The position numbers and the translations under genes were made by a program. Of a DNA stretch of 49,278 bases, positions 4,823-25,927 are shown piece after piece. This DNA comes from Bacilli bacterium (GTDB taxonomy: Bacteria; Bacillota_I; Bacilli_A; RF39; UBA660): positions 1 through 49,278 of the forward strand of contig JAFSGC010000019.1 in the NCBI GenBank assembly GCA_017434825.1. Direction: 5' to 3'. Numbering within the stretch: the stretch's first letter is position 1; every line of letters begins with the position of its first letter. Below the pieces are notes generated by a model. That model made no database searches, had not been told where the DNA came from, and saw only the letters and a list, made by a program, of their open reading frames with translations.

Positions 4823-4850
4823 AAAAAAAATTCACTATTATCTAGTGAAT
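4823..4850 (-). terminator. Terminator containing the stop codon of the solenoid protein gene
   Basis: An 8-bp stem ATTCACTA/TAGTGAAT (4830-4837 with 4843-4850) encloses the TAA stop (4838-4840) in its loop. On the minus strand it is followed by eight T. Confidence 0.8.
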
Positions 4851-7800
4851 TGTTCAGTGTTTCTTCTCCTACACTCTATTATAATAGAGTTACCTAATTG
4901 ACTTAAGGACATAATAAATCCCGAAATATTTAAATGTTCTTGTAAAGGACATAAATTAGACTCTATCGATTGTTTTAAATTTTGAATATCAATTTCTTTA
5001 CTTATCATAACATCATCTATAGCATTTTGAGAAATACCTTCAGATGATAACAAACCCACTATAAAAGATATATACTTATCTACTAAATTTTGAGTAGCTA
5101 AATAAAAATTACCTTCCACAACCATTTGTAGTGACTCTCCGCTCCAGCTAAAATTATCAGGCAAATTACTTGCGCAATTAAGTCGATGAGCGAGTTCGCC
5201 AAATAAGAAATCTTTTCTATTATTAATGTATTCTTGATTCATAGGAGTTCTTTCATTATCATTTATAATAGTTTCAATTTGATTAACTATAGCTAACAAA
5301 TCATCTACTTTAACTTTACAATCAAGAGAAACTACCTTTTTAGCCATTCCATAAGATACATCATATTTATAATCCATCACACGTACTGTATCAGGATCAT
5401 CAGTAGGATATATTCTTAAATGTTCTGAAGCATTTCTTAAACAGCTTACTAATTTTTTATTAATTAAACTTAATCGTTCAAACATATTATTTCCATCTTG
5501 CAGTCTTCCTTTTAATACCGTTGCAGTACTTGTTAAACTATTTAAAGAACCACTACCTTTTACTCTTACATTATTAAAGCTTTGAATAATACCATCTATC
5601 CATTGTAAACTTCCAGTATCAAAAGATTTATCACTTCTTTTATTAAGCTTATTTACATAGTTCATCACATCTTCTGGCGCAATAGAGATATTTAATGCAC
5701 TTAATTTTAAATCTAAGAATTCAATTCCTTCATTATTGAAATTAGAAAAAGTTTCATTTAAATATAACATTAAAGCCACCAACTTTGGATCATTAATACC
5801 AAATAAAGATTTCATCATATTCGTTTCAAAATGCTCAAACATAGATTCTGCTATAGCATCCTCACAAGTATATATTTCTTTAGGTAATTTATTTATTGTA
5901 GCTAAATTATTACCGACTTTGTCGTAAATAAATTTTAAACGAGAATAATCCATTCCATTAAAATCAAATGGTAGCTCACTTAATCTTTCAAAATGTACAA
6001 TTCCATCTTTAGTAACAAATTTCAAGAAAATTTCTAAACATTCTACTGGAGCATAAAATAAAATCCTTGGAATTGATTGCAGCTTTGTAAGATCATTATT
6101 AGCTTTATCAATTAATAATTGAAAAATTTCAATAGGACATGAAAAAAATTCCTCTGGTAATTTTTGTAAAGAAGAAACTTTAAAAATTCCATTTTCTCTA
6201 TTAATGTTCGATAAAATTTGTTGATGTTCGTCGTCTGTAAAAAAAATACCATTAGGTACATCATTAAAAATTGAAATATCATAATTATATATTTCTAATA
6301 ATTTATTGATTACATCCAGTGAATAACTATAAAAAATCGAAGGTAAATTAGAGATTTTATTAAAATCTACTTTTCCATTAACTTTAACTAAATTAGTTAA
6401 ATAATCATATTTTTCTTTCGAGCTATATAAAAGTGATTCAGGAATATTTGGAAGTAATGAATAATCGCCTTTAATGTCATCTAAAACATCAATAATCCTT
6501 TCGTACGAACAAGATTTATCCCAAAAACCATATGGAAAACTATTAGTAATCGAAAGGTCTAACCCGTTTTGTCTAATTTTATTAATAATAAAACTAAGTT
6601 TATCGCAACTAACTGAAAACGCCTTATCAGATAACTCTTTTAATTCTTCAATAGTAATTAGATTTGTTGTGTTTAATAGATTATATATTTCTAAGAGTTG
6701 TTCATTAGATATTCGAGGACTATAAAGAACATATGGTATGTCTTGCAATTTACTTAGATTAAAAGAATTTCCATCCATCGTAAATTTGAATAAAGTATCT
6801 ATTTTGGGAATTGGACACATCATTAATTCTTTAGGAATTTGAGAAAGCAAAGAAAAATCTAAAATACCATTTTCATTAGTAACATAGTGAATAATTCGAT
6901 TAAATTTATCTTTATAACACCTAAATATTAACATATCTACGTTATTCAAAACATTTATAGATAAATTTTGTTTGAGTATTTGTTCTACAAATATTTGTAA
7001 TCTTGATAATTTACAATTAAAACAAATTTCCGGAATATTTTGAATATCATTAGGGAAAATCTTATATAAGTAATAAAAATTTTCTAACGAACAATAATTA
7101 TGAAATAAAACACTTGGTAAATGTTCTAAACAACTTATATCTATATTTTCTGGTAATTCATCAAATGTTTTAACAATCGGAACATTATTTAAATAACATA
7201 ATATCTCACAAATTCTTTCAGTATTGTTTACTGGAGTTAATATAGAGGCAGGTAAATTCTTCAAATATGTTATACCGGATTTTTTTCCAGTTCTTTTTAG
7301 CAAAAGTTTAACTAAATTATCTCTTTTTTCACTTTCGCATTTACATAATGAAGAAATACCATTTAGCCATTCAAAATGGATGTCTCCTTTTTCATCTGTT
7401 ATATATCCTATAACACTTTGAAAATCTGCATCTTCACATAAAAACAGAATATTAGGCAAATCATTTACAGTAAGTAAACAATTGTTATTTTTCAACATTT
7501 CAACAATAGTTAAGAATCTTGTTACAGAGCATTTAGGATTAAGTGCAATCGCAGGAATTCTTCCTACGTCTTGGATGCCCCTTTCATCTGCAGTAATTTC
7601 TAATAGTTCATTTAACTTTGAAGGTTCAACCCGATAAAATAATGTAGCAAGATTATATATCCCCTCTTGATCTAAATTCATAGCAATATAATCATCTATT
7701 TCATCAGAAATTTCTTGATGTTGATTCATCGAAATAATTCCACTTCCAAAGTTTTTTAAATAACTTACCGGCAAACAAATATTAAGATGATTATTTGGAT

Positions 7801-8257
7801 GTCTATTTTTGATATAAGCCATATTATTAATAATTTCAAATGGAACGAAATCCTCTGAAGAGCTTACTCGATGCCCCAATGAATCTCGAATTTTTTGAAT
7901 TACTACAACGGCTCTTTTTAGTCTTTCTTCTAATTCAGGCTCGTAACAATTTAAAATACTTACTTTAACAACCCCATAAGAATTATTTTCATTTATTATA
8001 TTATCGACTTCATTAAGTGCAACACTATCCATTTGTCTTTCAACTACTTCTGCTAAAAAAAGCAAATCCCAAATTATGTGTTTTCCTTTTTCATAATCAA
8101 AACGGAGTTCATATTTACTTTTGGATATATCAATTTTTTCAAAATAATTTTCTTTTTGACGCATTAAATTAGTTGTTCCAAATTCATTGAAATTTAATAT
8201 GTCTGAAAATAAACTTCCACCATTAAGTGCAATATCTTGTAAACTTCTTCTCGCCAT
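4838..8257 (-). CDS. Large alpha-solenoid repeat protein, function unknown
   Basis: A 1139-residue protein I do not recognise. Residues 235 to about 820 are a regular tandem repeat. Each unit starts with a hydrophobic-Pro pair followed by an aromatic/aliphatic patch (for example LPNILF, LPSIFY, LPEEFF), then a helix-rich stretch, often a G-x-hydrophobic-x-F turn, then LxxLP. Pro anchors are at about 235, 268, 336, 381, 409, 475, 508, 575, 606, 639, 668, 701, 730, 763 and 792, spaced 28-35 residues, with a few degenerate anchors between (302, 441, 543). The spacing suggests a right-handed helical solenoid like mTERF or PPR proteins, but sequence kinship is not shown. The first 230 and last 320 residues look globular. 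There is no signal peptide or membrane helix. It is monocistronic, with its own promoter and terminator. Confidence 0.75.
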   Translation of the reverse strand: MARRSLQDIALNGGSLFSDILNFNEFGTTNLMRQKENYFEKIDISKSKYELRFDYEKGKHIIWDLLFLAEVVERQMDSVALNEVDNIINENNSYGVVKVSILNCYEPELEERLKRAVVVIQKIRDSLGHRVSSSEDFVPFEIINNMAYIKNRHPNNHLNICLPVSYLKNFGSGIISMNQHQEISDEIDDYIAMNLDQEGIYNLATLFYRVEPSKLNELLEITADERGIQDVGRIPAIALNPKCSVTRFLTIVEMLKNNNCLLTVNDLPNILFLCEDADFQSVIGYITDEKGDIHFEWLNGISSLCKCESEKRDNLVKLLLKRTGKKSGITYLKNLPASILTPVNNTERICEILCYLNNVPIVKTFDELPENIDISCLEHLPSVLFHNYCSLENFYYLYKIFPNDIQNIPEICFNCKLSRLQIFVEQILKQNLSINVLNNVDMLIFRCYKDKFNRIIHYVTNENGILDFSLLSQIPKELMMCPIPKIDTLFKFTMDGNSFNLSKLQDIPYVLYSPRISNEQLLEIYNLLNTTNLITIEELKELSDKAFSVSCDKLSFIINKIRQNGLDLSITNSFPYGFWDKSCSYERIIDVLDDIKGDYSLLPNIPESLLYSSKEKYDYLTNLVKVNGKVDFNKISNLPSIFYSYSLDVINKLLEIYNYDISIFNDVPNGIFFTDDEHQQILSNINRENGIFKVSSLQKLPEEFFSCPIEIFQLLIDKANNDLTKLQSIPRILFYAPVECLEIFLKFVTKDGIVHFERLSELPFDFNGMDYSRLKFIYDKVGNNLATINKLPKEIYTCEDAIAESMFEHFETNMMKSLFGINDPKLVALMLYLNETFSNFNNEGIEFLDLKLSALNISIAPEDVMNYVNKLNKRSDKSFDTGSLQWIDGIIQSFNNVRVKGSGSLNSLTSTATVLKGRLQDGNNMFERLSLINKKLVSCLRNASEHLRIYPTDDPDTVRVMDYKYDVSYGMAKKVVSLDCKVKVDDLLAIVNQIETIINDNERTPMNQEYINNRKDFLFGELAHRLNCASNLPDNFSWSGESLQMVVEGNFYLATQNLVDKYISFIVGLLSSEGISQNAIDDVMISKEIDIQNLKQSIESNLCPLQEHLNISGFIMSLSQLGNSIIIECRRRNTEQFTR

Positions 8258-14818: not shown

Positions 14819-15310
14819 TTATGAATATAGTGCTTTTGTTTCTCCCACAGATTTAAAAATCAACACATTACGTAAAACCGGTAAATCTAATTTATAAAAT
14901 ACAATTACTTGATAATAATAGCTTTTTGTTACGCCATTATCTTTCGTTCCAGCTGTTTTAGTAATACAAAATGCAGCTTGACCACTTGTCTTTTGTCCAC
15001 TTCTAGTATATCCTTGAACTTCACCTTCAGAATGTGATAATACTGGACAATTACCAGTTTGACGATATGATAAATGATTAATGGCATCAACGATTTCTTG
15101 AATTACTATTCCATCACCAGTAAGATTGCCAGATACAGGAACCTCATCTTGTAAGTCTAATCCACCATTACGCTCAATAATAGATACAATTTCATCCTTA
15201 ATAGCATAGGAATTTGATCTGTTCATTGTAAGTGCCATAATACCTGAAAATATAAATATCATAAACACAACAATAACAAATATTTGTGTAGAACCAATAC
15301 TTTCCTTCAT
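14819..15310 (-). CDS. Pilin-like/TadE-like protein
   Basis: A 163-residue protein with one hydrophobic helix at about 9-29 straight after a short MKESIGSTQ leader, followed by an exported-looking domain with two cysteines (about 88 and 115) and Gly/Ser-rich segments. The layout is that of a minor pilin or TadE-like pseudopilin. It starts 5 bp after the 84-residue pilin-like gene and shares the MKE[AS] N-terminus with three other small subunits of the locus. No clear type III prepilin cleavage site (G/A followed by E at +5) is seen. Confidence 0.65.
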   Translation of the reverse strand: MKESIGSTQIFVIVVFMIFIFSGIMALTMNRSNSYAIKDEIVSIIERNGGLDLQDEVPVSGNLTGDGIVIQEIVDAINHLSYRQTGNCPVLSHSEGEVQGYTRSGQKTSGQAAFCITKTAGTKDNGVTKSYYYQVIVFYKLDLPVLRNVLIFKSVGETKALYS

Positions 15311-15315
15311 ACTAT

Positions 15316-15570
15316 CTATCCTTTATAATTACACATAAAAGTGCTAGACTTACAAACAACTTGATTACTAGCATCAACCTCGGGAATACAACATTTTACT
15401 TTACCATTTGCATCAGGGCTTGTACCACATAACGCTTTCTCACATGAAGTTTGTGATGAAAAATTATTTTCGAGTAATGGCCATATTGTAAAGTAAAAAA
15501 AGGCTACTAAAATAGCCACACTAACCGTTACAACTAATAAATTTGATAATTCACCTGTAGCTTCCTTCAT
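15316..15570 (-). CDS. Small pilin-like subunit, Cys-rich
   Basis: An 84-residue protein: MKEATGELS leader, a hydrophobic helix (about 10-31), then a short hydrophilic tail with seven cysteines including CC. Its first nine residues are identical to those of the 81-residue neighbour, which points to a common recognition or processing signal. Size and layout fit Flp-type pilins, although Flp pilins usually lack so many cysteines. Ribosome site AAAAGGTG. It is probably co-transcribed from the strong promoter at 15885-15913. Confidence 0.65.
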   Translation of the reverse strand: MKEATGELSNLLVVTVSVAILVAFFYFTIWPLLENNFSSQTSCEKALCGTSPDANGKVKCCIPEVDASNQVVCKSSTFMCNYKG

Positions 15571-15609
15571 TTTTTCACCTTTTTTACTTCAATATTTTAT
15601 ATATTTTTA

Positions 15610-15855
15610 CTATGCGTTTGGATCGTCGCAGTTAACATTCTTAGTAGTAATTGTACCATTTGCGTCCACTTCATCGTATAAACATGCGCAAGTACCATTA
15701 GTACAAGTACAACCATAAGCCTCAGAACAATGCATTCTTGAAGTAATACTAGATCTTAGAGTTGGTAATAATAACCCTGTAAAAAGTGCTAAAACAGCAG
15801 CAATTGCAACAACAGCAATAACAGTAGTACTTAATTCACCAGTAGCTTCTTTCAT
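15610..15855 (-). CDS. Small pilin-like subunit, probable major pilin
   Basis: An 81-residue protein: MKEATGELS leader, an Ala/Val-rich hydrophobic helix (about 10-30), then a tail with six cysteines in CSEAYGCTCTNGTCAC spacing plus one near the end. It is first after tadC and has the strongest signals in the locus: a TTGATA-17-TATAAT promoter with TG extension and a GGAGGAG ribosome site. This favours it as the main filament subunit. The Cys-rich tail suggests disulfide-stabilised subunits. The pilin assignment is inference from size, position and layout. Confidence 0.68.
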   Translation of the reverse strand: MKEATGELSTTVIAVVAIAAVLALFTGLLLPTLRSSITSRMHCSEAYGCTCTNGTCACLYDEVDANGTITTKNVNCDDPNA

Positions 15856-15916: not shown

Positions 15917-16708
15917 TTATAGATTCATCATTTGTAAAACCGCTAAGATAAGTACAATCATAACACCAATACCAGTTGTTATTAGCATCTTCATTGTCAT
16001 GCCTTCCATTTTTTCCAAACGATTTTTATATTTTGTTTCTCTTGCCTTTTGTTGTAAGTTTGAAATTGATTTTGAGAAAGCTAATAATTGTTCTTGCTTT
16101 CTTTCTTGGCGACCAATACTAAGACGATATAAAAGTCGCATCATTCTCATACTATCTCTAACGGGGTATGTTTTAGCAAATTCCATGTATGGATTTATTG
16201 AATCATCCCCAGAATTAATTGCATTAATTAAATCTTGCAATCCATCTCTAAATATCTCTGGAGCATCTGGAAGTGATTTTCCAATTGCAACTGGAACAGT
16301 ATAGTGTTGAATTAATATTTCTATACTCTTAAGATAATGAGGCAACATTGCATCTATTTCATTAATATGTTTTCTATAATATCCCTTAATATCCATATAA
16401 GAAATCTTATATGTAAAAAATCCGGCTCCAAATGCTACCGCAAGCATCAATGGAGAAAAATTAGATAACGTAATCAACACTACTGCAAAAATAACTATTA
16501 TTCCATTTTTTATCCTTTTATTAAATAGAATATCTGGATTTACTGAATTACCATATTTAGCTCTAACATAAAAGTCCCAATCGGATTCTTTTAGTTTTTT
16601 AAATAAGGCATCATTATCACTTACAAGCTGATTTAAACTAATTTGTTTAGTGCTAAACATTATAATAAATACTATAGCAGCAATAATGAGCATTTCATAA
16701 TATATCAT
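15917..16708 (-). CDS. tadC: TadC-like pilus platform protein
   Basis: A 263-residue integral membrane protein with hydrophobic segments at about 3-20, 70-105 (two) and 238-260, and a T2SSF-like cytoplasmic helical region between (HINEIDAMLPHYLKSIEILI through RMMRLLYRLSIGRQE). TadB and TadC form the inner-membrane platform against which the TadA ATPase works. It starts one base after the tadB stop, the conserved tadA-tadB-tadC order. Divergent in sequence, so the call leans on order and topology. Confidence 0.8.
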   Translation of the reverse strand: MIYYEMLIIAAIVFIIMFSTKQISLNQLVSDNDALFKKLKESDWDFYVRAKYGNSVNPDILFNKRIKNGIIVIFAVVLITLSNFSPLMLAVAFGAGFFTYKISYMDIKGYYRKHINEIDAMLPHYLKSIEILIQHYTVPVAIGKSLPDAPEIFRDGLQDLINAINSGDDSINPYMEFAKTYPVRDSMRMMRLLYRLSIGRQERKQEQLLAFSKSISNLQQKARETKYKNRLEKMEGMTMKMLITTGIGVMIVLILAVLQMMNL

Positions 16709-16709
16709 A

Positions 16710-17615
16710 CTATTCTACCCCCACATCTGCATTGTAGTACTTTTCACCTTTAAGTAAAAAACTAGCATTTAGTACTATTATTAAGTGTAATAAAATTTGA
16801 ACATACCACATTTCTAAAAGTTCTAAATATGTTTCAACTTGAAGCATATATTGAAGAGCTAGAATCAGGAAAAACAACGCTAAACCAAACTTAATAAATC
16901 TGCCATGGAAGTTTTTACGGTCCATTTGATCTCGGTATACACCTTCGACTAAAGCATCGATATCCATTGACATATTTTCAAGAGATTCACCAGCATCTCT
17001 TGCACCTTCTTTTGTAATTTGATAGAACAACTGATGCATATTTTTAATCATATAATATGGATACTTGGCATTAAAGTATTCAATTGATTGGTCAATAGTA
17101 CCATTTTGATAAGATAAATCAATCATCTTTTTTATATCACTAAGTACTGGATCTTCAATAATTCCAGAATCGCGTACACCCTCTAATGACTTAACAAAAC
17201 TTTGGGTAGTATTAAATTCCATTATTACGTTTGTTGCATATGTTTGTATTTGTTCAAAAATAAATTCTGAATACACTCTTTGACAACGTAGATATGCAAG
17301 ATATGGAATAAAGGATATCGCTACAACAGCATAAATAATTGCCCAAATAAAGCTATAAAAATATAAATATGCTATTCCTCCAGCAAATCCTGCAAACATA
17401 ACTATTTGTCCAAGATATTGCCGTGAATCATATTCTTGTCCTAATTCTTTTGCTTTAGCACGTACGCTTTTAAAAGAATATGGTGCATACTTTTCATAAA
17501 CAGATGAAACTTGTCCAATAAAAAACTTATGAACATTTTCACCTGGATTACGACGATATATGATAATAAATATTCCTAATGCAATAAGTATGAATAGTAA
17601 AAGTAAATCTTCCAT
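16710..17615 (-). CDS. tadB: TadB-like pilus platform protein
   Basis: A 301-residue membrane protein with an N-terminal helix (about 3-20), a pair of hydrophobic segments (about 70-105) and two C-terminal segments (about 240-290). The middle has the T2SSF-type pattern ITKEGARDAGESLENMS, where type II secretion F proteins carry their second helical bundle. It follows tadA by 11 bp and precedes tadC by one base. Confidence 0.82.
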   Translation of the reverse strand: MEDLLLLFILIALGIFIIIYRRNPGENVHKFFIGQVSSVYEKYAPYSFKSVRAKAKELGQEYDSRQYLGQIVMFAGFAGGIAYLYFYSFIWAIIYAVVAISFIPYLAYLRCQRVYSEFIFEQIQTYATNVIMEFNTTQSFVKSLEGVRDSGIIEDPVLSDIKKMIDLSYQNGTIDQSIEYFNAKYPYYMIKNMHQLFYQITKEGARDAGESLENMSMDIDALVEGVYRDQMDRKNFHGRFIKFGLALFFLILALQYMLQVETYLELLEMWYVQILLHLIIVLNASFLLKGEKYYNADVGVE

Positions 17616-17626
17616 ATCAATCCTTT

Positions 17627-18724
17627 CTATAACGCTTCAATTTGAGTGTTATCTACTGGCATTTCTGTTTCTTCAATAAATAAATCTGGCGCCAATTTTT
17701 TTCCTTGGGCTCCAAAATAATCTCTTAAATATTTTGTAGGATTTTTAAATGTAATAGTACCATCTAAACCTTTTTGGAAAATAATATTTGCCTTAGCTTC
17801 ATTATTTTCATCTACATAGAATTCTGCAACTTCTACAATCTCTCTTTGGAATCTTTGAAGCTCTGCACTCATGTACCCCTTAACATGAATACCAATTTGA
17901 ACATATCTATGAATTGATTTTAAAAATTGATCAATATCCTGACTTCCCTCTAACAAAGAATACATACGCATTGGAATATTTTGTGCTTTATCTGAGTGAA
18001 TAGTCGAAATAATGTTATGTCCTGATGAAACTGAGTTACGTACCGCAGTAACCGCTTCTCCAGAACGAACTTCGGATAGTAGTATCCATTTAGGGTTCTG
18101 TCTCATACATGTTACTAGTACATCAGAGTAAGATGCAATATTACTTGTTTTCATTGCTACTATATCCCTATGAGGAAAAATTCTATCTAAATGAAGTTCA
18201 AGAGTATCTTCGATTGTGATAATCTTTTCATTTTCTGCAGTATTTGATGCTAAGTATTTTACAAGTTCTGTTTTACCTGAACCAGTTTCTCCACTTACCA
18301 TAATATTGCAGTGTGCTTGCACACATTGTAATAAGAAGTCATGCAAGCTTTCTGTTACATATTTTTCATTTAATAATTTTTCTTTATTTAATCTAATTTT
18401 TGCTGGAGTCTTTCTTATAACACAAGCAATTCCGTTAGTAGCAATTGACTCATGTACAAAGTTAAGACGAAGTTCAGCTCCTTCAGCATCTAAAAAAGGA
18501 TGGGCCATATTAAATGTTACGCCCATTACATTAGAACATTGGAAGGCCAACTTTTCCATTAATGCATTATTAATTTCTGGCCTTTCAACTTTATATATAC
18601 CTTTATCTAATGATTTGACCCAAACTTGACCGCCATTTGAATATGACACGTCTGTAATATTATCATCATTTAAAAACTCTGATATTGGTCCAAAATCTAA
18701 TTGTGAAAATATTGCTTCTTTCAC
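17627..18724 (-). CDS. tadA: TadA/CpaF-type secretion ATPase
   Basis: A 365-residue VirB11/CpaF-family AAA-type hexameric ATPase that drives pilus assembly from the cytoplasm. Walker A is GETGSGKT at 145-152, Walker B region WILLSEVR at 213-220, and the His box GHNIISTIHS at 235-244. It lacks the long N-terminal extension seen in many CpaF proteins, so it is near the minimal core. It is preceded by two cpaB-like genes and followed by tadB. No separate retraction ATPase is present, as usual for Tad systems. Confidence 0.93.
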   Translation of the reverse strand: MKEAIFSQLDFGPISEFLNDDNITDVSYSNGGQVWVKSLDKGIYKVERPEINNALMEKLAFQCSNVMGVTFNMAHPFLDAEGAELRLNFVHESIATNGIACVIRKTPAKIRLNKEKLLNEKYVTESLHDFLLQCVQAHCNIMVSGETGSGKTELVKYLASNTAENEKIITIEDTLELHLDRIFPHRDIVAMKTSNIASYSDVLVTCMRQNPKWILLSEVRSGEAVTAVRNSVSSGHNIISTIHSDKAQNIPMRMYSLLEGSQDIDQFLKSIHRYVQIGIHVKGYMSAELQRFQREIVEVAEFYVDENNEAKANIIFQKGLDGTITFKNPTKYLRDYFGAQGKKLAPDLFIEETEMPVDNTQIEAL

Positions 18725-18745: not shown

Positions 18746-19513
18746 TTACTCTACTGGTATTTCTGCACATTGTGCCAAGATAAATTGTTTTAAATATTCT
18801 TTAGTTTTAACTTCGCCAGGTTGATAATTAGCATTTCTTGGTACCGGGACAATCGTAATACCATTTATATAACTAGCTTTCATAAATAATTCGTACATAT
18901 CATCAGGTACTGAGAACATTAATTCAGATGGAGAACCAACAGCCCCATCAGCATTAAATACATCCTTACCTGCTGCATCTCTTACAGCAAGAATTTCAAT
19001 ACCTTCGATTAGTTTTCCAAACATAATCTTACCATTTTCATCAGTAGCTTTCATATACAAATCAATACTTGTTCCAGGATGCATTGTATTACCATATGTA
19101 GTGTGATTATTTACTGATAATGCATATATAGTATATCCATCATCTATTTCATCAAAAATAGTATTAGGTAACTGACTTTTTTCAACTACTTGATTCTTAT
19201 AAAATAGTCCTCCTGCAGGAACCGAAGTTCCAGTATTTATATACTTACCAATTAACTCATCTTTGTTAAGAACTATATCAGCATTTTTTAAAAATGCTGA
19301 ATTAACCTCAGTCCACTTAATGTCTTCCTCTTTTATTTCTTCAGTAGCGGTTATCTCACGAACAGCATAAGGAACTTTAGTAGGTGTTGTAGCTTCATTT
19401 ACTCTATAATTGTAGAAGAAAAATAATACCCCTATCCCAATAATAACGCCGAGAATAGTAACAGTATTTTTATTACCTAAAAACTTTTTAATTGAATTAA
19501 TTAATCCTGTCAT
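18746..19513 (-). CDS. CpaB/RcpC-like SAF-domain protein (copy 2)
   Basis: A 255-residue protein with a single N-terminal membrane helix (about 17-34) and a SAF domain right after it (about 46-110: KVPYAVREITATEEIKEEDI, then GTSVPAGGLFY). In diderm Tad systems CpaB/RcpC helps the secretin; here there is no outer membrane, so it probably acts at the membrane/wall face, where SAF domains may bind glycans. It is closely related to its upstream neighbour along the whole length. Confidence 0.82.
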   Translation of the reverse strand: MTGLINSIKKFLGNKNTVTILGVIIGIGVLFFFYNYRVNEATTPTKVPYAVREITATEEIKEEDIKWTEVNSAFLKNADIVLNKDELIGKYINTGTSVPAGGLFYKNQVVEKSQLPNTIFDEIDDGYTIYALSVNNHTTYGNTMHPGTSIDLYMKATDENGKIMFGKLIEGIEILAVRDAAGKDVFNADGAVGSPSELMFSVPDDMYELFMKASYINGITIVPVPRNANYQPGEVKTKEYLKQFILAQCAEIPVE

Positions 19514-19527
19514 TTCAATTCTCCTTT

Positions 19528-20295
19528 TTATTCTACTACTGGTATTTCAGCACTTTTAGCTAAAATATAATTTTTTAAAAATTCATATGTTTTTATTTCT
19601 GGTGGGTTATATTTTTTATTTCTTGGTACAGGTACAATACTTAATCCAGGAATATAAGTTGCTAGCATTAATAGTTCGTAATCTTCATCTTTCACTTCGA
19701 ACATCAATTCTGCTGGTACTCCAGATTTTGAACCACCAAATACATTTTTTCCAGTTGCATCTACTACTTGTAAAACTTCAATACCTGTAACAAATTTTCC
19801 GAACATAATTCGGTTATTTTCATCAACAGCCTTAATATATAGGTCTATTTTATCCTTTGGATATATTGAATTACCATATGTTGAATGGTTACTTACACTT
19901 AACCCAAATACTGTATAGCCATCTTTAATATTATCGTAATAATTTACTGGCAATTCAGCTTTAGACACAACTTGTTTTTTATAAAATAAGGATCCTGCAG
20001 ATATAGAAGTGCCAAGATTTACATATTTACCAATTAAATCTCCGCTACCTCTATATACATCTGCAGTTTTTAAAAATTTACTGTTAATCTCCGTATAACC
20101 AATATTTTCTTCCGTAATTTTTTCTCCAGCAGCAATGGCCACTTTTGCATAGGGAACTCTTATTGGAGTAACAGCGTGTTCCACTCTATATTTATAAAAT
20201 CCCCATATAACAATGATTCCAGCAATAACAGCTAATATTGTTACTGTATTTTTATTAGAAACTATATTCCGTATTTTTTGAACTATATTACCCAT
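19528..20295 (-). CDS. CpaB/RcpC-like SAF-domain protein (copy 1)
   Basis: A 255-residue paralogue of the 18746 product and the same length. It has a membrane helix at about 17-34, the SAF motifs RVPYAKVAIAAGEKITEENI and GTSISAGSLFY, and the closing block PGLSIVPVPRN shared with the sister gene. Tandem copies 14 bp apart indicate duplication; both keep intact frames, so they may form a heteromer. Confidence 0.82.
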   Translation of the reverse strand: MGNIVQKIRNIVSNKNTVTILAVIAGIIVIWGFYKYRVEHAVTPIRVPYAKVAIAAGEKITEENIGYTEINSKFLKTADVYRGSGDLIGKYVNLGTSISAGSLFYKKQVVSKAELPVNYYDNIKDGYTVFGLSVSNHSTYGNSIYPKDKIDLYIKAVDENNRIMFGKFVTGIEVLQVVDATGKNVFGGSKSGVPAELMFEVKDEDYELLMLATYIPGLSIVPVPRNKKYNPPEIKTYEFLKNYILAKSAEIPVVE

Positions 20296-20312: not shown

Positions 20313-21038
20313 TTAACTACAAGCATTTTGATCAAATGTATTAAATGTTGCAATTATTTGACATTTATCATTTCCAGTTTTGTATGCAATACAATATTCG
20401 TCAGTAGAATCTAAATCATATTGTAAAATTCCTAACTCAGTTGGAGTTCCACATTTATAAATTGTAATAGGTGCTTTAGTACCATTTGTAGTACATACAT
20501 CATCTTTAAATTCATACTTACAACTTTTAGCAGTTAATACATTTTTTATACTATTGTTCTCTGTTAAAACACCATCAAGTTGACTAACGCTAGCATACCA
20601 GAACTCATTATTAGTACCCGCAGTTGGAATGAATTCAGCATTTGATTCTAATATTGCATCAATACGATTAACAATATCAAAAGATTCAGCATCTCCAGCG
20701 ATATTAAATGTATTTGCACGACTTGATACTTTTACCCCTACCTTTGGAGGAGCTTCATATATTTCGGAAAACTCAATATCATAAGTTGTAGCAATTGATG
20801 CTTCTTCAGCAAATCTTCTTAAAAAAGATTCATAAAATTTTTCTTTATTAATCTTCAACTCACCGTATTGGCGATAGTATGCAAAATCAATTGCATCTTC
20901 CATCGCCGCTTCAGTGATTGTTTTTACTAAATAATAATCTTGTGTATTTGAAGAAGTAAAGCTTTGAACTAATAAAAGCACTACTATAATAAATACACCT
21001 AATACAACTAACCAATAGCCCCAATAAGCTTCTTTCAT
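20313..21038 (-). CDS. TadE-like pseudopilin
   Basis: A 241-residue protein with the leader MKEAYWGYW, a hydrophobic helix (about 9-26) and a long exported domain with several cysteines towards the C-terminus (CKYEFKDDVC, CGTPTELG, C near the end). Position and layout suggest a minor pilin placed at the filament tip, together with the large surface protein directly upstream. It has 20 bp to that gene and shares the MKEA start with the two small pilins. I do not recognise the C-terminal domain. Confidence 0.62.
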   Translation of the reverse strand: MKEAYWGYWLVVLGVFIIVVLLLVQSFTSSNTQDYYLVKTITEAAMEDAIDFAYYRQYGELKINKEKFYESFLRRFAEEASIATTYDIEFSEIYEAPPKVGVKVSSRANTFNIAGDAESFDIVNRIDAILESNAEFIPTAGTNNEFWYASVSQLDGVLTENNSIKNVLTAKSCKYEFKDDVCTTNGTKAPITIYKCGTPTELGILQYDLDSTDEYCIAYKTGNDKCQIIATFNTFDQNACS

Positions 21039-21058: not shown

Positions 21059-24000
21059 TTATTTCCATGATGGACCAATATCCGGAATTTTATCTCCATT
21101 TATATCCATAACAGTATATTGATATATAGTCCAATAGTCATTTATTACCATTATCGGTCTTGTTGTAGCATCATTATATATAACATTGTTACCAGTATAA
21201 TTACGTACATTAACATAACTATTATTTAGTGCAGCACTATATGCATTAGCTCTATTTGGCATTTGAACTTCTGCACTATAATTAGTTTCCAAATCTGACA
21301 TAAATTTACTAAAGCAGAATACTTTTTTCATTTGGCAGCCGTTTGTTTCATCCCAATAATAACCAGCCTTTTCACAAGTGTCTTGTGCACGATACTGAGT
21401 AACAGGATAGTCAAAACACTCTAAAGTATCATTACTATATCCGCCCTTATCCTCATTAGTATCATTATAATTACGTATATAATTTGCCATTTCTGGAGTT
21501 AATTTAACTTTAACTTTATATTCTTCCACCATTTGCAATTCTGCTTGGTCATCTGGAGTAAGACTTTCAACGTCATTTAATTCTGCTCTTTTCTTAATTT
21601 CTGTAATTGTATTACCAGCTTTTTCAGCTACCAACACATTTATCGGATTAGCTATCGTTGGATCCCAATACCAGTTATATCCCATTTCCCTATCATTAGG
21701 ATTAACTATTTCTGGGGTAATTGGTTTAAACTCAACTCCAGCTTTTATTTCTTCGTTATTCCAATTTCCAGTATCCATTACACACGGTCCAACACACATA
21801 ATCGTACAATTTGGACAGCAATTGTAATTCTCAGTAGCAGCAGCAACTGCAGAATCACGATCAGAATATTCTACACAACTACTATCATACGATGTAGTAT
21901 TACATACATAATATGACTCAGCCTGTTTTACACAATAACTGCTTGTAGTAGGACAAAGTCTCTTTTTACATCTATCCCAAGACTCGCCAGTGTTACATTC
22001 AATTGGGTGGTGAACCACGCCAGCAGAATCGGTACAACTTGTTATTTCATAAGTACATGCATATTGATTTCCTTTTAATTCTTCTCCATTAATTGTTTGG
22101 GAATTATTATTTAATACTGAAGATAAACCTTTTTCAGAATAAATTCTTCCTAGTCTATTACTTTGATTAGAATAATACATACCAATGTTATTCAAAGTCA
22201 ATATGTAAAAATATACATCTGGTTGAGTATACAATCCTACTGGCAAACCAGGAATTAACGATGCTTCAGGAATATCAACATTTGAAACCTTAATAGAACC
22301 ACTCGGAGAAAATTGATAGTAAACTCTAGCAGTATCATATTTTCCTTCTGCAACAGCAACTTTATGTACATAATTCATATTTGTAACTTTTACACCAGGA
22401 GTAGTATTAGTAGGATCATTTCTCTTATCTACATAGTTTTCACATCCACTATCATTACAAACAACAACTGGATAAAATGTATAATCAGAACTTGTTATAC
22501 TAGTCTTTAGCGTGCCAGTACAATTATATGAAGCGTCAATGGCACCATCACACCACTCAACAACATTCATAGCATTATTATTAAATATATTATAAACAGG
22601 TTCATTATCAATACAGCGTGTTCCGGAAGTACTAGGTTGACCACAATATTGAGCTATAACTTTTTGATTAACGTTCCCAGCTGTATCCTTAGTAGGAATC
22701 ATTACATCACACGATTTCCCGTTACAGTCGAGTGCTTGAACATCTTTGATCCATTTATCATAACTATAGTCATTTGGTTCTGGTTCTCTATAAGAATATT
22801 TAATTTCCGGATTAAATTCATATACCATTTGCCAACTTCGATACATATCGTCATTCAAGTACATAGTATCATAATTATCATCTGCCATACATCCGTTAAA
22901 TAAATCAACTAGATGATATAACTTATTAACAGCCGCTTCATACAAGGTTTTATATTCTTCTAATTTTTCTTGTGTTATATCATTATCTTCCAAATACTTT
23001 TCATAAGCGTCTTCAGGGGTTGTTATATCACATGAAGCACCACTACACCCACAAGTTCCATCTGCTAGAAGACTACAAGAACCAGTACTTTTTGATTCAA
23101 TCTCACCAAATTCTAATGTACTGTCATCTATAGTTGAAGCCGTAATAGCATTTTTATCAGTATAATCATATATATAAACGTCACTTGATGTTGCAACTGT
23201 ATAATATGCACTATTTTGAAGTACTAATTGATAATAAGTACCGTTATAAGCATATTTTTTTGGAGTTACACTACCATTTGTAGTAATACTAGGTATTCCG
23301 CAACTAATTTGCCCTGTCAACGGATTTGTAAGAATTGGTGCAGAAGTATATTTATAGCAAGTTTCAGTAGTTCCATCATCCCAATACTTTGGATCACTCA
23401 TATCAGCTTTTGCATCCAACAAATTCTTTGTTCTAAGCATTAAATTATAATTAGTGACCATCTCTGCTTGAGCCGCTCTTAAATCTCTATATAAAGCTGC
23501 AGAATCAATTTTGGTACTATAGCAATCCATTTGACCTTTAATTTCCATAGAAAGCTTAAAGTATCTTCCGTTATCTACAGTTACTTTATATGGTACACTA
23601 AATTTATAGTCTTCCTTACAATAAACAGAACAATATGGATTATCATGTAAAATACCAGCGTTTAGTGAATCCACCAATTTATGAGAACTTCCATTGGCAT
23701 CCGAATTCTTTAATATACATTTTTCAATATTTAAATTTCCATGATATATACCTTCACGATATTCATATTCAGCAAGTGTATTACCAGAATTCATAGTGAC
23801 ATTGGTAGGATCATCATCACACATTTGAGGGAATGAATTTTGTGGTTTACAGCCAGCAGGACACATAGAAAGCGGAATATTGTATTTATCTTCTACCGGA
23901 TCTCCTGAAAACATAAAGAATCTTTGAAAGTCAGTAGAGTCCAATCCGCCTGATAGCTTTGCCATTAACATAGCACCGTTTAATAGCATTGTATCATCAT

Positions 24001-25120
24001 ATGCATGCTTAATTGAAAAACCGGCAGGACAACCAGATGTACTATCAGAAGATTGATTTTTAACTTTGTAAGCAATATATATAGTTTTATATTCATCATC
24101 TGGATTACCTGTCGCAGGAGAATTAGCCTTTAAAAAATCGACTAAATTAATTTTATTGGCATCCGATGATAAAATATCCACCATAGGACTCAAGGCAGTT
24201 AAATCAGCAGGCTTATCAAAACTATATCCAATCTCAGATATTGAAGTAGTCGAAGGATAATCAGCTTCTGCACCATAATACTCATAACTACCATTATTAA
24301 ATCCATCTATAGTAATAGCAACAACTATATCTTGTTCATACTGAGTAAGAGAACCTACTGTTGTTTCAGTAACCTCCGAAGAACTTACTCTATTTATAGT
24401 TACCTCAGGCATTGTAATTGAACCTTCCATATAACGAACAGCAGCAGCCATACCTTTTTCCAATAACTCTTTAGCTTTTGTCTCCACTGCAACGGCCCCA
24501 CCAGAGTATTTAAACATTTTACTTGGATCTTCTGATAATCTATAAAGATCTAGTATACGTTTAGGATCTTGATTTCCATTTAACTTTTTGTAATATTCAG
24601 TCATTTCAGGATCATCTTTAATCCATCTGTACGCCGTTTGAATATACGAATAAAAAAGTGAATTACCATTACTAGAGATACGATAAGGTATTCCCCATAA
24701 CGCATTAACAAACATTCTTAACGCTTGAGACGTTGCTTCATAATCATTATCACGATTAGGATTAGAAGTGCTAAACGCCTGTTCTCCTAAATCTTGCATA
24801 ATAACAAGAACACCGTAATCTAAATGTTTTTTGGTACTTTCAGCGCCCATTAGGATATGATCAACCTTTAAATACAGACTGGCGTTAACAAATGGGTCTG
24901 CACAATACATATAATACTTTTCATTCACATCAGCAGTATTAGTAGCATAATATATTGAGTTTTTAAATTGTGTAGGATATTTTGGACACGTTATTGTAGG
25001 AATCGCAGTATGCCCATCTCTTCCCTTTTCAAAGATTGTTTCGGCATCATATGCAAAAACATCCCCGATGCTAAATAGCACACACAGCAAAAAGAATAAA
25101 CTGATTAATTTATTTTTCAT
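21059..25120 (-). CDS. Large secreted Cys-rich protein with thioester-domain-like N-terminus
   Basis: A 1353-residue exported protein with a signal peptide (cleavage near Ala23, VFA-YDAE). The N-terminal domain has YMYCADP (Cys73), then YGVLVIMQDLG, then EATSQALRMFVNALWG with Gln132. This is the Cys ... TQxAIW pattern of thioester domains (TED), in which Cys and Gln form an internal thioester that binds host surfaces covalently. The rest is rich in cysteines (many CxxxC clusters), Asn/Asp and Tyr and ends DINGDKIPDIGPSWK without LPXTG or a membrane helix, so anchoring is unclear; attachment to the pilus tip is possible. It overlaps the upstream gene by four bases (ATGA). TED assignment is inference. 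Confidence 0.68.
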   Translation of the reverse strand: MKNKLISLFFLLCVLFSIGDVFAYDAETIFEKGRDGHTAIPTITCPKYPTQFKNSIYYATNTADVNEKYYMYCADPFVNASLYLKVDHILMGAESTKKHLDYGVLVIMQDLGEQAFSTSNPNRDNDYEATSQALRMFVNALWGIPYRISSNGNSLFYSYIQTAYRWIKDDPEMTEYYKKLNGNQDPKRILDLYRLSEDPSKMFKYSGGAVAVETKAKELLEKGMAAAVRYMEGSITMPEVTINRVSSSEVTETTVGSLTQYEQDIVVAITIDGFNNGSYEYYGAEADYPSTTSISEIGYSFDKPADLTALSPMVDILSSDANKINLVDFLKANSPATGNPDDEYKTIYIAYKVKNQSSDSTSGCPAGFSIKHAYDDTMLLNGAMLMAKLSGGLDSTDFQRFFMFSGDPVEDKYNIPLSMCPAGCKPQNSFPQMCDDDPTNVTMNSGNTLAEYEYREGIYHGNLNIEKCILKNSDANGSSHKLVDSLNAGILHDNPYCSVYCKEDYKFSVPYKVTVDNGRYFKLSMEIKGQMDCYSTKIDSAALYRDLRAAQAEMVTNYNLMLRTKNLLDAKADMSDPKYWDDGTTETCYKYTSAPILTNPLTGQISCGIPSITTNGSVTPKKYAYNGTYYQLVLQNSAYYTVATSSDVYIYDYTDKNAITASTIDDSTLEFGEIESKSTGSCSLLADGTCGCSGASCDITTPEDAYEKYLEDNDITQEKLEEYKTLYEAAVNKLYHLVDLFNGCMADDNYDTMYLNDDMYRSWQMVYEFNPEIKYSYREPEPNDYSYDKWIKDVQALDCNGKSCDVMIPTKDTAGNVNQKVIAQYCGQPSTSGTRCIDNEPVYNIFNNNAMNVVEWCDGAIDASYNCTGTLKTSITSSDYTFYPVVVCNDSGCENYVDKRNDPTNTTPGVKVTNMNYVHKVAVAEGKYDTARVYYQFSPSGSIKVSNVDIPEASLIPGLPVGLYTQPDVYFYILTLNNIGMYYSNQSNRLGRIYSEKGLSSVLNNNSQTINGEELKGNQYACTYEITSCTDSAGVVHHPIECNTGESWDRCKKRLCPTTSSYCVKQAESYYVCNTTSYDSSCVEYSDRDSAVAAATENYNCCPNCTIMCVGPCVMDTGNWNNEEIKAGVEFKPITPEIVNPNDREMGYNWYWDPTIANPINVLVAEKAGNTITEIKKRAELNDVESLTPDDQAELQMVEEYKVKVKLTPEMANYIRNYNDTNEDKGGYSNDTLECFDYPVTQYRAQDTCEKAGYYWDETNGCQMKKVFCFSKFMSDLETNYSAEVQMPNRANAYSAALNNSYVNVRNYTGNNVIYNDATTRPIMVINDYWTIYQYTVMDINGDKIPDIGPSWK

Positions 25121-25869
25121 AGAACACTCTTCTTTCTTTTTTTATTAACTATAATGAATGTTGTAACAGCGCCTATTGCAACTACACCCACAACAATCAA
25201 TACAACAACTTTATTTTCTACAATAAAATTCCAAACAGCTGCGTACCAAGGTACATTTTGTTCAGCCATTTGTTGAGCCTCTTTTTCTTCAATCTCTTTT
25301 TCAACAGTATCTAAAAATTCATAAAATGGAATTTCATCAAAAGTAACATATTTCTCACACAAATAATATTCAGGAACTTGACTACATTGCAAATAGTAAT
25401 AATAAGGATTTTTTCTTGGCAAAGTTTTATATATTGTTCTTAAACTTTCATGAACGCATTCAGTCTTAGCGGAAGCATAAACTTTTATTGTTAACGTCGT
25501 AACATTCATTATACCCTTCCAATCAAAACTTACAATGCCGCCTTCAGAATCACTATAAGAATATTTTTTCATAGAATTGTCTTGGTTATTTTCAACCGTA
25601 AAATAGAAATCTTCAGTAACATTATAAACAGATACCTTAAAATAATTATACTCTGAACGAACACATAAGCCTAATTCTTCATCCGCTTCACTACATCCAG
25701 ACATCTCTTCGTCATAATAGCCTGTCATTTCTTCATATTTAACTTTAATATTAGCTACATCTTTATTAAGTTGAGCTTGTTCACTATAGCTACAAGAACT
25801 AGCGTTTACACCGCTTATACCTAGCAAAAAGCTACTTAACAATACCGCCATTATATTTCTTTTTTTCAT
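25117..25869 (-). CDS. Surface protein with signal peptide and C-terminal anchor helix
   Basis: A 250-residue protein read from the second in-frame ATG (MKKRNIMAVL). The longer start at 25908 lies upstream of the -10 box at 25904-25899, so it cannot be in the transcript, and GAAGG precedes the chosen ATG. It has a signal peptide ending near VNA-SSCSY, an outside domain with cysteines, then a membrane helix (VVVLIVVGVVAIGAVTTFII) and a basic KKRKKS tail, a stop-transfer layout. It is the first gene of the pilus operon and is coupled to the large secreted protein, which it may anchor. Function unknown. Confidence 0.7.
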   Translation of the reverse strand: MKKRNIMAVLLSSFLLGISGVNASSCSYSEQAQLNKDVANIKVKYEEMTGYYDEEMSGCSEADEELGLCVRSEYNYFKVSVYNVTEDFYFTVENNQDNSMKKYSYSDSEGGIVSFDWKGIMNVTTLTIKVYASAKTECVHESLRTIYKTLPRKNPYYYYLQCSQVPEYYLCEKYVTFDEIPFYEFLDTVEKEIEEKEAQQMAEQNVPWYAAVWNFIVENKVVVLIVVGVVAIGAVTTFIIVNKKRKKSVL

Positions 25870-25898
25870 AATTTGATATACCTTCTCTACTATTAAAA

Positions 25899-25927
25899 AT
25901 TTTATCATATTGCAAGTGGCATTTCAA
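25899..25927 (-). promoter_or_regulatory. Promoter of the pilus operon
   Basis: TTGAAA (25927-25922), 17 bp, TAAAAT (25904-25899) on the minus strand. It transcribes the operon that starts at 25869 and rules out the upstream ATG. Confidence 0.65.

Follow-up and report, generated by a model that had tools for sequence, protein, structure and literature searches.

The window analysed here is the whole of contig JAFSGC010000019.1 (49,278 nucleotides, assembly GCA_017434825.1), from a Bacilli bacterium of the GTDB lineage Bacteria; Bacillota_I; Bacilli_A; RF39; UBA660. On its reverse strand, a Tad-type pilus locus encodes P0001, a large secreted protein with 43 cysteines, and it is the N-terminal domain of P0001 and its possible role as an adhesin that concern us (Table 1). 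An original prediction, made from the DNA letters, had put P0001 forward as a candidate thioester domain (TED) adhesin linked to a Tad pilus, with a thioester between Cys73, in YMYCADP, and Gln132, in ATSQALRMFVNALWG. The open reading frame is real and begins with a signal peptide-like segment, and the Tad context was also borne out: a TadA/CpaF-like ATPase, CpaB/RcpC-like genes, a DUF5411 gene and pilin-like genes lie beside it.

Table 1 Features of the P0001 gene and its neighbourhood in the window (Φ, hydrophobic residue; ζ, hydrophilic residue).
Feature	Position	Strand	Basis
P0001, secreted Cys-rich protein with class II-like TED head and Cys-rich body	21059..25120	-	1353 aa, ATG start
Signal peptide-like segment, residues 1-23 (ends ..DVFA, then YD)	25052..25120	-	Sequence; Ala23 in 73/74 homologs
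Predicted TED fold, residues 24-418	23867..25051	-	AlphaFold pLDDT ~90 over most; first nine VIA rows are TEDs
Cys73, candidate thioester Cys, [YFL]C-Φ-ζ = YCAD	24902..24904	-	74/74 invariant; aligns to TED Cys
Gln132, variable position on second helix	24725..24727	-	Gln in 1-2/74; helix H100-119 of model
Arg135, occupies Trp place of TQxxΦW	24716..24718	-	Arg in 67/74; aligned to Trp
Inserted beta-sandwich, residues 239-387, between third helix and Gln strand (class II feature)	23960..24406	-	Model strands E216-364
Gln399, candidate thioester Gln, F-Q-R-F-F (398-402) = Φ-Q-ζ-Φ-Φ	23924..23926	-	74/74 invariant
Cys-rich body, residues 420-1353, without assigned known fold	21062..23863	-	Model pLDDT 75; best Z 5.1; no Pfam match
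C-terminal GPSWK, residues 1349-1353, conserved	21062..21076	-	Sequence, homologs
P0002, upstream partner: signal peptide, Cys-rich, C-terminal membrane span and basic tail	25117..25908	-	Directly upstream in 69/74 loci
DUF5411 protein (PF17424), pseudopilin-like N-terminus	20313..21038	-	E 5.7e-53; directly downstream in 67/75 loci
Two CpaB/RcpC-like genes	18746..20295	-	19528-20295: SAF 4.8e-5, TIGR03177 pilus_cpaB 6.3e-6; 18746-19513: sequence similarity
TadA/CpaF-like secretion ATPase	17627..18724	-	PF00437 1.8e-28; TIGR03819 TadA family 4.8e-29
Two putative TadB/TadC-like membrane proteins	15917..17615	-	Position and length, kept beside TadA; no family match
Three putative small pilin-like proteins, common MKE[AS] start	14819..15855	-	Sequence
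1139-aa open reading frame of unknown function	4838-8257	-	

Pfam and NCBIfam scans assigned no family to P0001, and phmmer and profile searches of PDB sequences returned chance matches only, mostly to designed helical proteins. We modelled residues 24–495 with AlphaFold, using 47 sequences as input (model number = protein number − 23). The model had a mean predicted local distance difference test score (pLDDT) of 82.6, with values of ~90 or higher over the greater part of the first 400 residues. Strands come first, Cys73 lying at a strand end, followed by helices (H100-119 holds Gln132), a beta-sandwich and a hairpin beginning just after Gln399. When the model was realigned to known structures, the first nine rows of VIA-align were all TEDs (6fwy, 6fwv, 2xic, 4bug, 2xid, 5a0g, 6fx6, 4c0z and 5a0l), with Z-scores of 12.8 for 6fwy, 12.6 for 6fwv, 11.3 for 2xic, 10.2 for 5a0g, 9.9 for 6fx6 and 9.4 for 5a0l, and 7.4 for the best non-TED chain. 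Counting from the ends of the aligned ranges, which takes the final few positions to align without gaps, places Gln399 (model residue 376) on the published thioester Gln of Cpa (Gln575), CpTIE (Gln267) and SfbI (Gln261). An inserted beta-sandwich is the topology of class II TEDs (PMC6194298), and the modelled head of P0001 follows this class II plan. Profile comparison agrees, as hhalign of the P0001 family profile against 22 authentic TEDs gave 91% probability (E 9.9e-7) with Cys aligned on Cys. The Pfam TED family PF08341, which helps to detect the fold but does not define it, matched 5 of 47 homologs (best E 2.9e-5), and the homolog L149 scored 20.7 bits against a cut-off of 22. By predicted fold and by the two residues that define it, P0001 belongs to the TED fold family. 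It is not among the sortase-anchored TIE (thioester–isopeptide–ester) proteins; P0001 has no LPXTG anchor and no isopeptide or ester stalk, ends in GPSWK without a membrane span, and shows no Cna/SpaA match.

A first scan of genome contigs with P0001 alone found no relatives. Related genomes of the same genus and family carry homologs at the same locus, and a profile scan of genome contigs recovered 77 loci, mostly in metagenome-assembled genomes labelled Bacilli, Bacillota, Tenericutes or Mycoplasma. There was no match on plasmids and none outside the window's own family, to which all 14 matching genomes of a 198-genome class-wide sample belonged. Gln399 was invariant in 22 close homologs and in the set of 47; because the folding alignment (A3) had lost ~20 sequences, among them some with no clear Gln, we reran the conservation test on all 74 usable sequences, which were not selected for Gln. 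In the N-terminal region Cys73 and Gln399 were each invariant (74/74) and no other column was, at a mean column identity of ~17%. Across four alignment settings Cys73 was retained in 73–74 and Gln399 in 69–74 of the 74 homologs, with the next Gln column at 18–19 and position 132 at 1–2. A Q-polar-Φ-Φ context surrounds Gln399 at 67 of 74 sites, compared to 78 of 869 other Gln residues; seven sequences lack it, and for a few outliers, such as L220 and L247, it is uncertain that the aligned Gln is the right one. The surroundings of Cys73 and Gln399 also resemble those in authentic TEDs from this bacterial family, where the Gln lies in TNQDVITIG (the genome's own TED) or TNQDMIIGA (a Tad-locus homolog). 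Thus Cys73, invariant far beyond chance, stands as the reactive cysteine that had been proposed, and the conservation pattern and the model indicate that the true thioester pair is almost certainly Cys73–Gln399.

AlphaFold of residues 414–1353 gave a model of mid confidence whose best structural matches were to unrelated chains (Table 1); a missing match of this kind is not evidence for a new fold. GPSWK or a close variant ends almost all homologs, which, together with the invariant cysteines of the body, suggests a conserved role in assembly or attachment. In this genus the motif is preceded by a DINGDGxPD stretch resembling a calcium-binding loop. Two homologs, L028:8474-14002 (1842 aa) and L234:5873-11791 (1972 aa), are enlarged by extra Cys-rich insertions.

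The linkage of P0001 to the Tad locus is conserved. A DUF5411-like gene lies directly downstream in most of the loci with room for one, a P0002 homolog directly upstream (Table 1), and TadA within 6 kb in 61/63 loci. DUF5411 was found in 119 of 145 genomes of a family sample, and in most of the DUF5411 loci retrieved a gene for a large secreted protein rich in Cys lies upstream. A TED-like head was detected by hidden Markov model (HMM) in ~12 of 67 such proteins, and therefore the head may be exchangeable. In L219 and L247 the homolog is a few hundred bases downstream of DUF5411 and not upstream, which suggests duplicated or exchanged tip genes. Tad-locus proteins from other genera (L099, L118 and L167) have C-x-[DE]-P and an intact Q-x-x-x-W, for example YIVAQMYIW, and their heads are closer to canonical TEDs, although their sequences alone did not reveal which Gln would form the thioester. 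Among the neighbours in the window, P0002 has no family match and could be an anchor or an assembly factor. The MKE[AS] start is common to the pilin-like and DUF5411 proteins, where it precedes a hydrophobic segment, unlike the usual prepilin leaders; a prepilin peptidase is encoded elsewhere in the genome.

We consider it likely, from sequence, model and analogy, that P0001 serves a Tad-type filament as a secreted adhesin and carries a class II-like TED head with a Cys73–Gln399 thioester. Our computations gave the fold, the invariant Cys/Gln pair, the secretion signal and the conserved Tad linkage. The formation of the thioester, the display on a filament and the target are proposed by analogy with Cpa and SfbI. 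The N-terminal ~395 residues would form the TED, in which Cys73, on strand C, and Gln399, on strand Q in the hairpin after the inserted beta-sandwich, would join spontaneously in an internal thioester, releasing ammonia. Attack on this bond by a nucleophile of the target, by analogy a lysine, would then connect bacterium and target through an amide at Gln399. Via the pseudopilin-like DUF5411 protein, the Cys-rich body, with its invariant cysteines and GPSWK, could link the head with the tip or shaft of the pilus, or via P0002 with the membrane. There is perhaps an even chance that this holds across the lineage, so that these uncultured Bacilli would arm Tad-type pili with covalent thioester harpoons. 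These would make up a new TED subfamily (Cys...A-x-R...Gln) that relies for its delivery on a type IV-related filament and not on sortase.

The part of the original prediction that fared worst was the partner of Cys73. Both residues of a Cys73–Gln132 thioester do occur in this one protein, but Gln is found at position 132 in only 1–2 of 74 homologs, most of which have Leu, Ile, Thr or Met, with Met already in the closest relative found. In a first alignment of 11 full-length proteins, Cys73 and Arg135 were invariant and position 132 was Q, M, H, I, L or F. Gln132 is also a helix residue (in ATSQALRMF), whereas in characterised TEDs the thioester Gln is on strand Q; the TQxxΦW motif belongs to a helix, and no characterised TED uses the Gln of this motif for the thioester (PMC4450167, PMC6194298), so the proposed pairing is wrong in principle. 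Nor is the claimed Gln-x-x-x-W arrangement present, since the residue at +4 is Met136 and the only nearby Trp is W142 (Q+10). When aligned to authentic TEDs by hhalign, the helical-motif Gln pairs with Ser131 and the Trp with Arg135, leaving Gln132 one residue out of register. We give this pairing almost no credence. It is also very unlikely that Cys73 is engaged in a disulfide within the Cys-rich domain. P0001 has cysteines in abundance, and C364 and C420 are present in 68/74 and 71/74 homologs, but L177 and L178 lack both and yet retain Cys73. The joint loss of C364 and C420 in these two suggests that they probably pair with each other, and in L177 Cys73 is the only Cys before the Gln and thus needs no disulfide partner there. 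A TED fold without a working thioester, in which Cys73 and Gln399 are kept for structural reasons, would fit with the loss of the helical TQxxΦW motif; however, its Gln and Trp were dispensable for the thioester in published mutants and the motif is not universal in TEDs (PMC4450167). Against such low overall identity, no residue of the domain apart from this Cys and Gln is invariant, as in active TEDs, and we regard this alternative as improbable.

The chief rival accepts a genuine TED adhesin but places it off the filament, held at the envelope by P0002, with the Tad-like genes acting as its secretion or assembly system or being merely co-expressed. Indeed, P0001 starts with an ordinary signal peptide and lacks a pilin-like N-terminus; P0002, which has a signal peptide and a C-terminal membrane span, accompanies it very constantly; and TIEpLS20, a class II TED encoded in a conjugation locus, is sortase-independent (PMC8092201). 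Yet DUF5411, CpaB and TadA follow P0001 in nearly all loci, and P0001 is the sole large exoprotein encoded inside this Tad gene cluster; we consider display at the envelope without a filament possible but doubtful. Several results also weigh against our reading of P0001 as a TED adhesin of the Tad filament. The PF08341 search that had been suggested as a check gave no match to P0001 even at E 10, a custom TED HMM scored it at E 0.39 only, and Foldseek alone gave no match below E 1e-3, with the TED 6fx6 at rank 32. P0001 has TSQALR in place of the common, though not essential, helical TQxxΦW motif, and we found in it no sortase signal and no isopeptide or ester domain. Because the Foldseek scores are not significant, the case rests on structural realignment, TED profile comparison, Pfam matches of homologs and conservation. 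Linkage of Tad genes alone does not prove that P0001 is on the pilus, and the pilus link of the original prediction is upheld for gene linkage, which is conserved, and not for physical attachment. Its TED adhesin stands as a TED fold on a secreted protein in a Tad locus, as indicated by fold, profile, Pfam matches of homologs, invariance and linkage, but with a partner other than Gln132.

Internal-thioester covalent adhesion is known chiefly from proteins anchored by sortase and from pili that sortases build. Among the papers searched, none joins 'thioester domain' with 'Tad pil', and the eight that join 'thioester domain' with 'type IV pil' were off subject, as judged by title. P0001 is set apart by the Arg in place of the motif Trp, the long insert and the Tad context. 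If the Tad loci of a single bacterial family systematically encode a TED fold, covalent attachment to hosts or surfaces would reach into the type IV filament superfamily, which raises the question of how a non-covalent, possibly dynamic filament carries an irreversible bond. It would also offer a way into the question of how uncultured Bacilli with small genomes stay attached to surfaces. Pfam misses most TEDs of the P0001 type, so others may have gone unnoticed.

The best structural matches to P0001 are the class II TEDs BaTIE (6fwv), EfmTIE86 (6fwy) and SaTIE (6fx6), all of which similarly have a beta-sandwich inserted before the Gln strand; in BaTIE and EfmTIE86 the Cys is also near residue 70–90. 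The Cys–Gln separation, across the inserted sandwich as in class II TEDs, is 326 residues in P0001 (153–653 in the P0001 family), compared to 171–204 in these three. P0001 differs from them further in its Arg for the TQxxΦW Trp, in lacking LPXTG or an isopeptide stalk, and in being encoded in a Tad locus. The P0001 head superposes on the class I TEDs of Cpa/Spy0125, SfbI and CpTIE at 3.3–4.0 Å over ~150 residues (Z 9.4–11.3), with Gln399 at the position of their Gln, but these lack the beta-sandwich insert. Cpa is a pilus tip adhesin, although on a covalent pilus built by sortase. A precedent for a sortase-independent class II TED in the locus of an envelope machine is TIEpLS20 (p34 of plasmid pLS20; PMC8092201), which we liken to P0001 by description and not by sequence, and which differs in its conjugation, not Tad, locus and its Cna-type repeats. 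PF08341 TEDs occur in 106 of the 145 family genomes sampled, many with several copies, and the genome of P0001 itself has a canonical one on contig C4 (L001:1312-2751; PF08341 E 7.7e-8). Like the P0001 head, this protein has a similar Cys motif (YCIEP) and Gln context; unlike P0001, it is 479 aa long, has SpaA/Cna-like repeats and retains TQMYIW. It is encoded beside a sortase, and two routes of TED delivery thus coexist in this genome.

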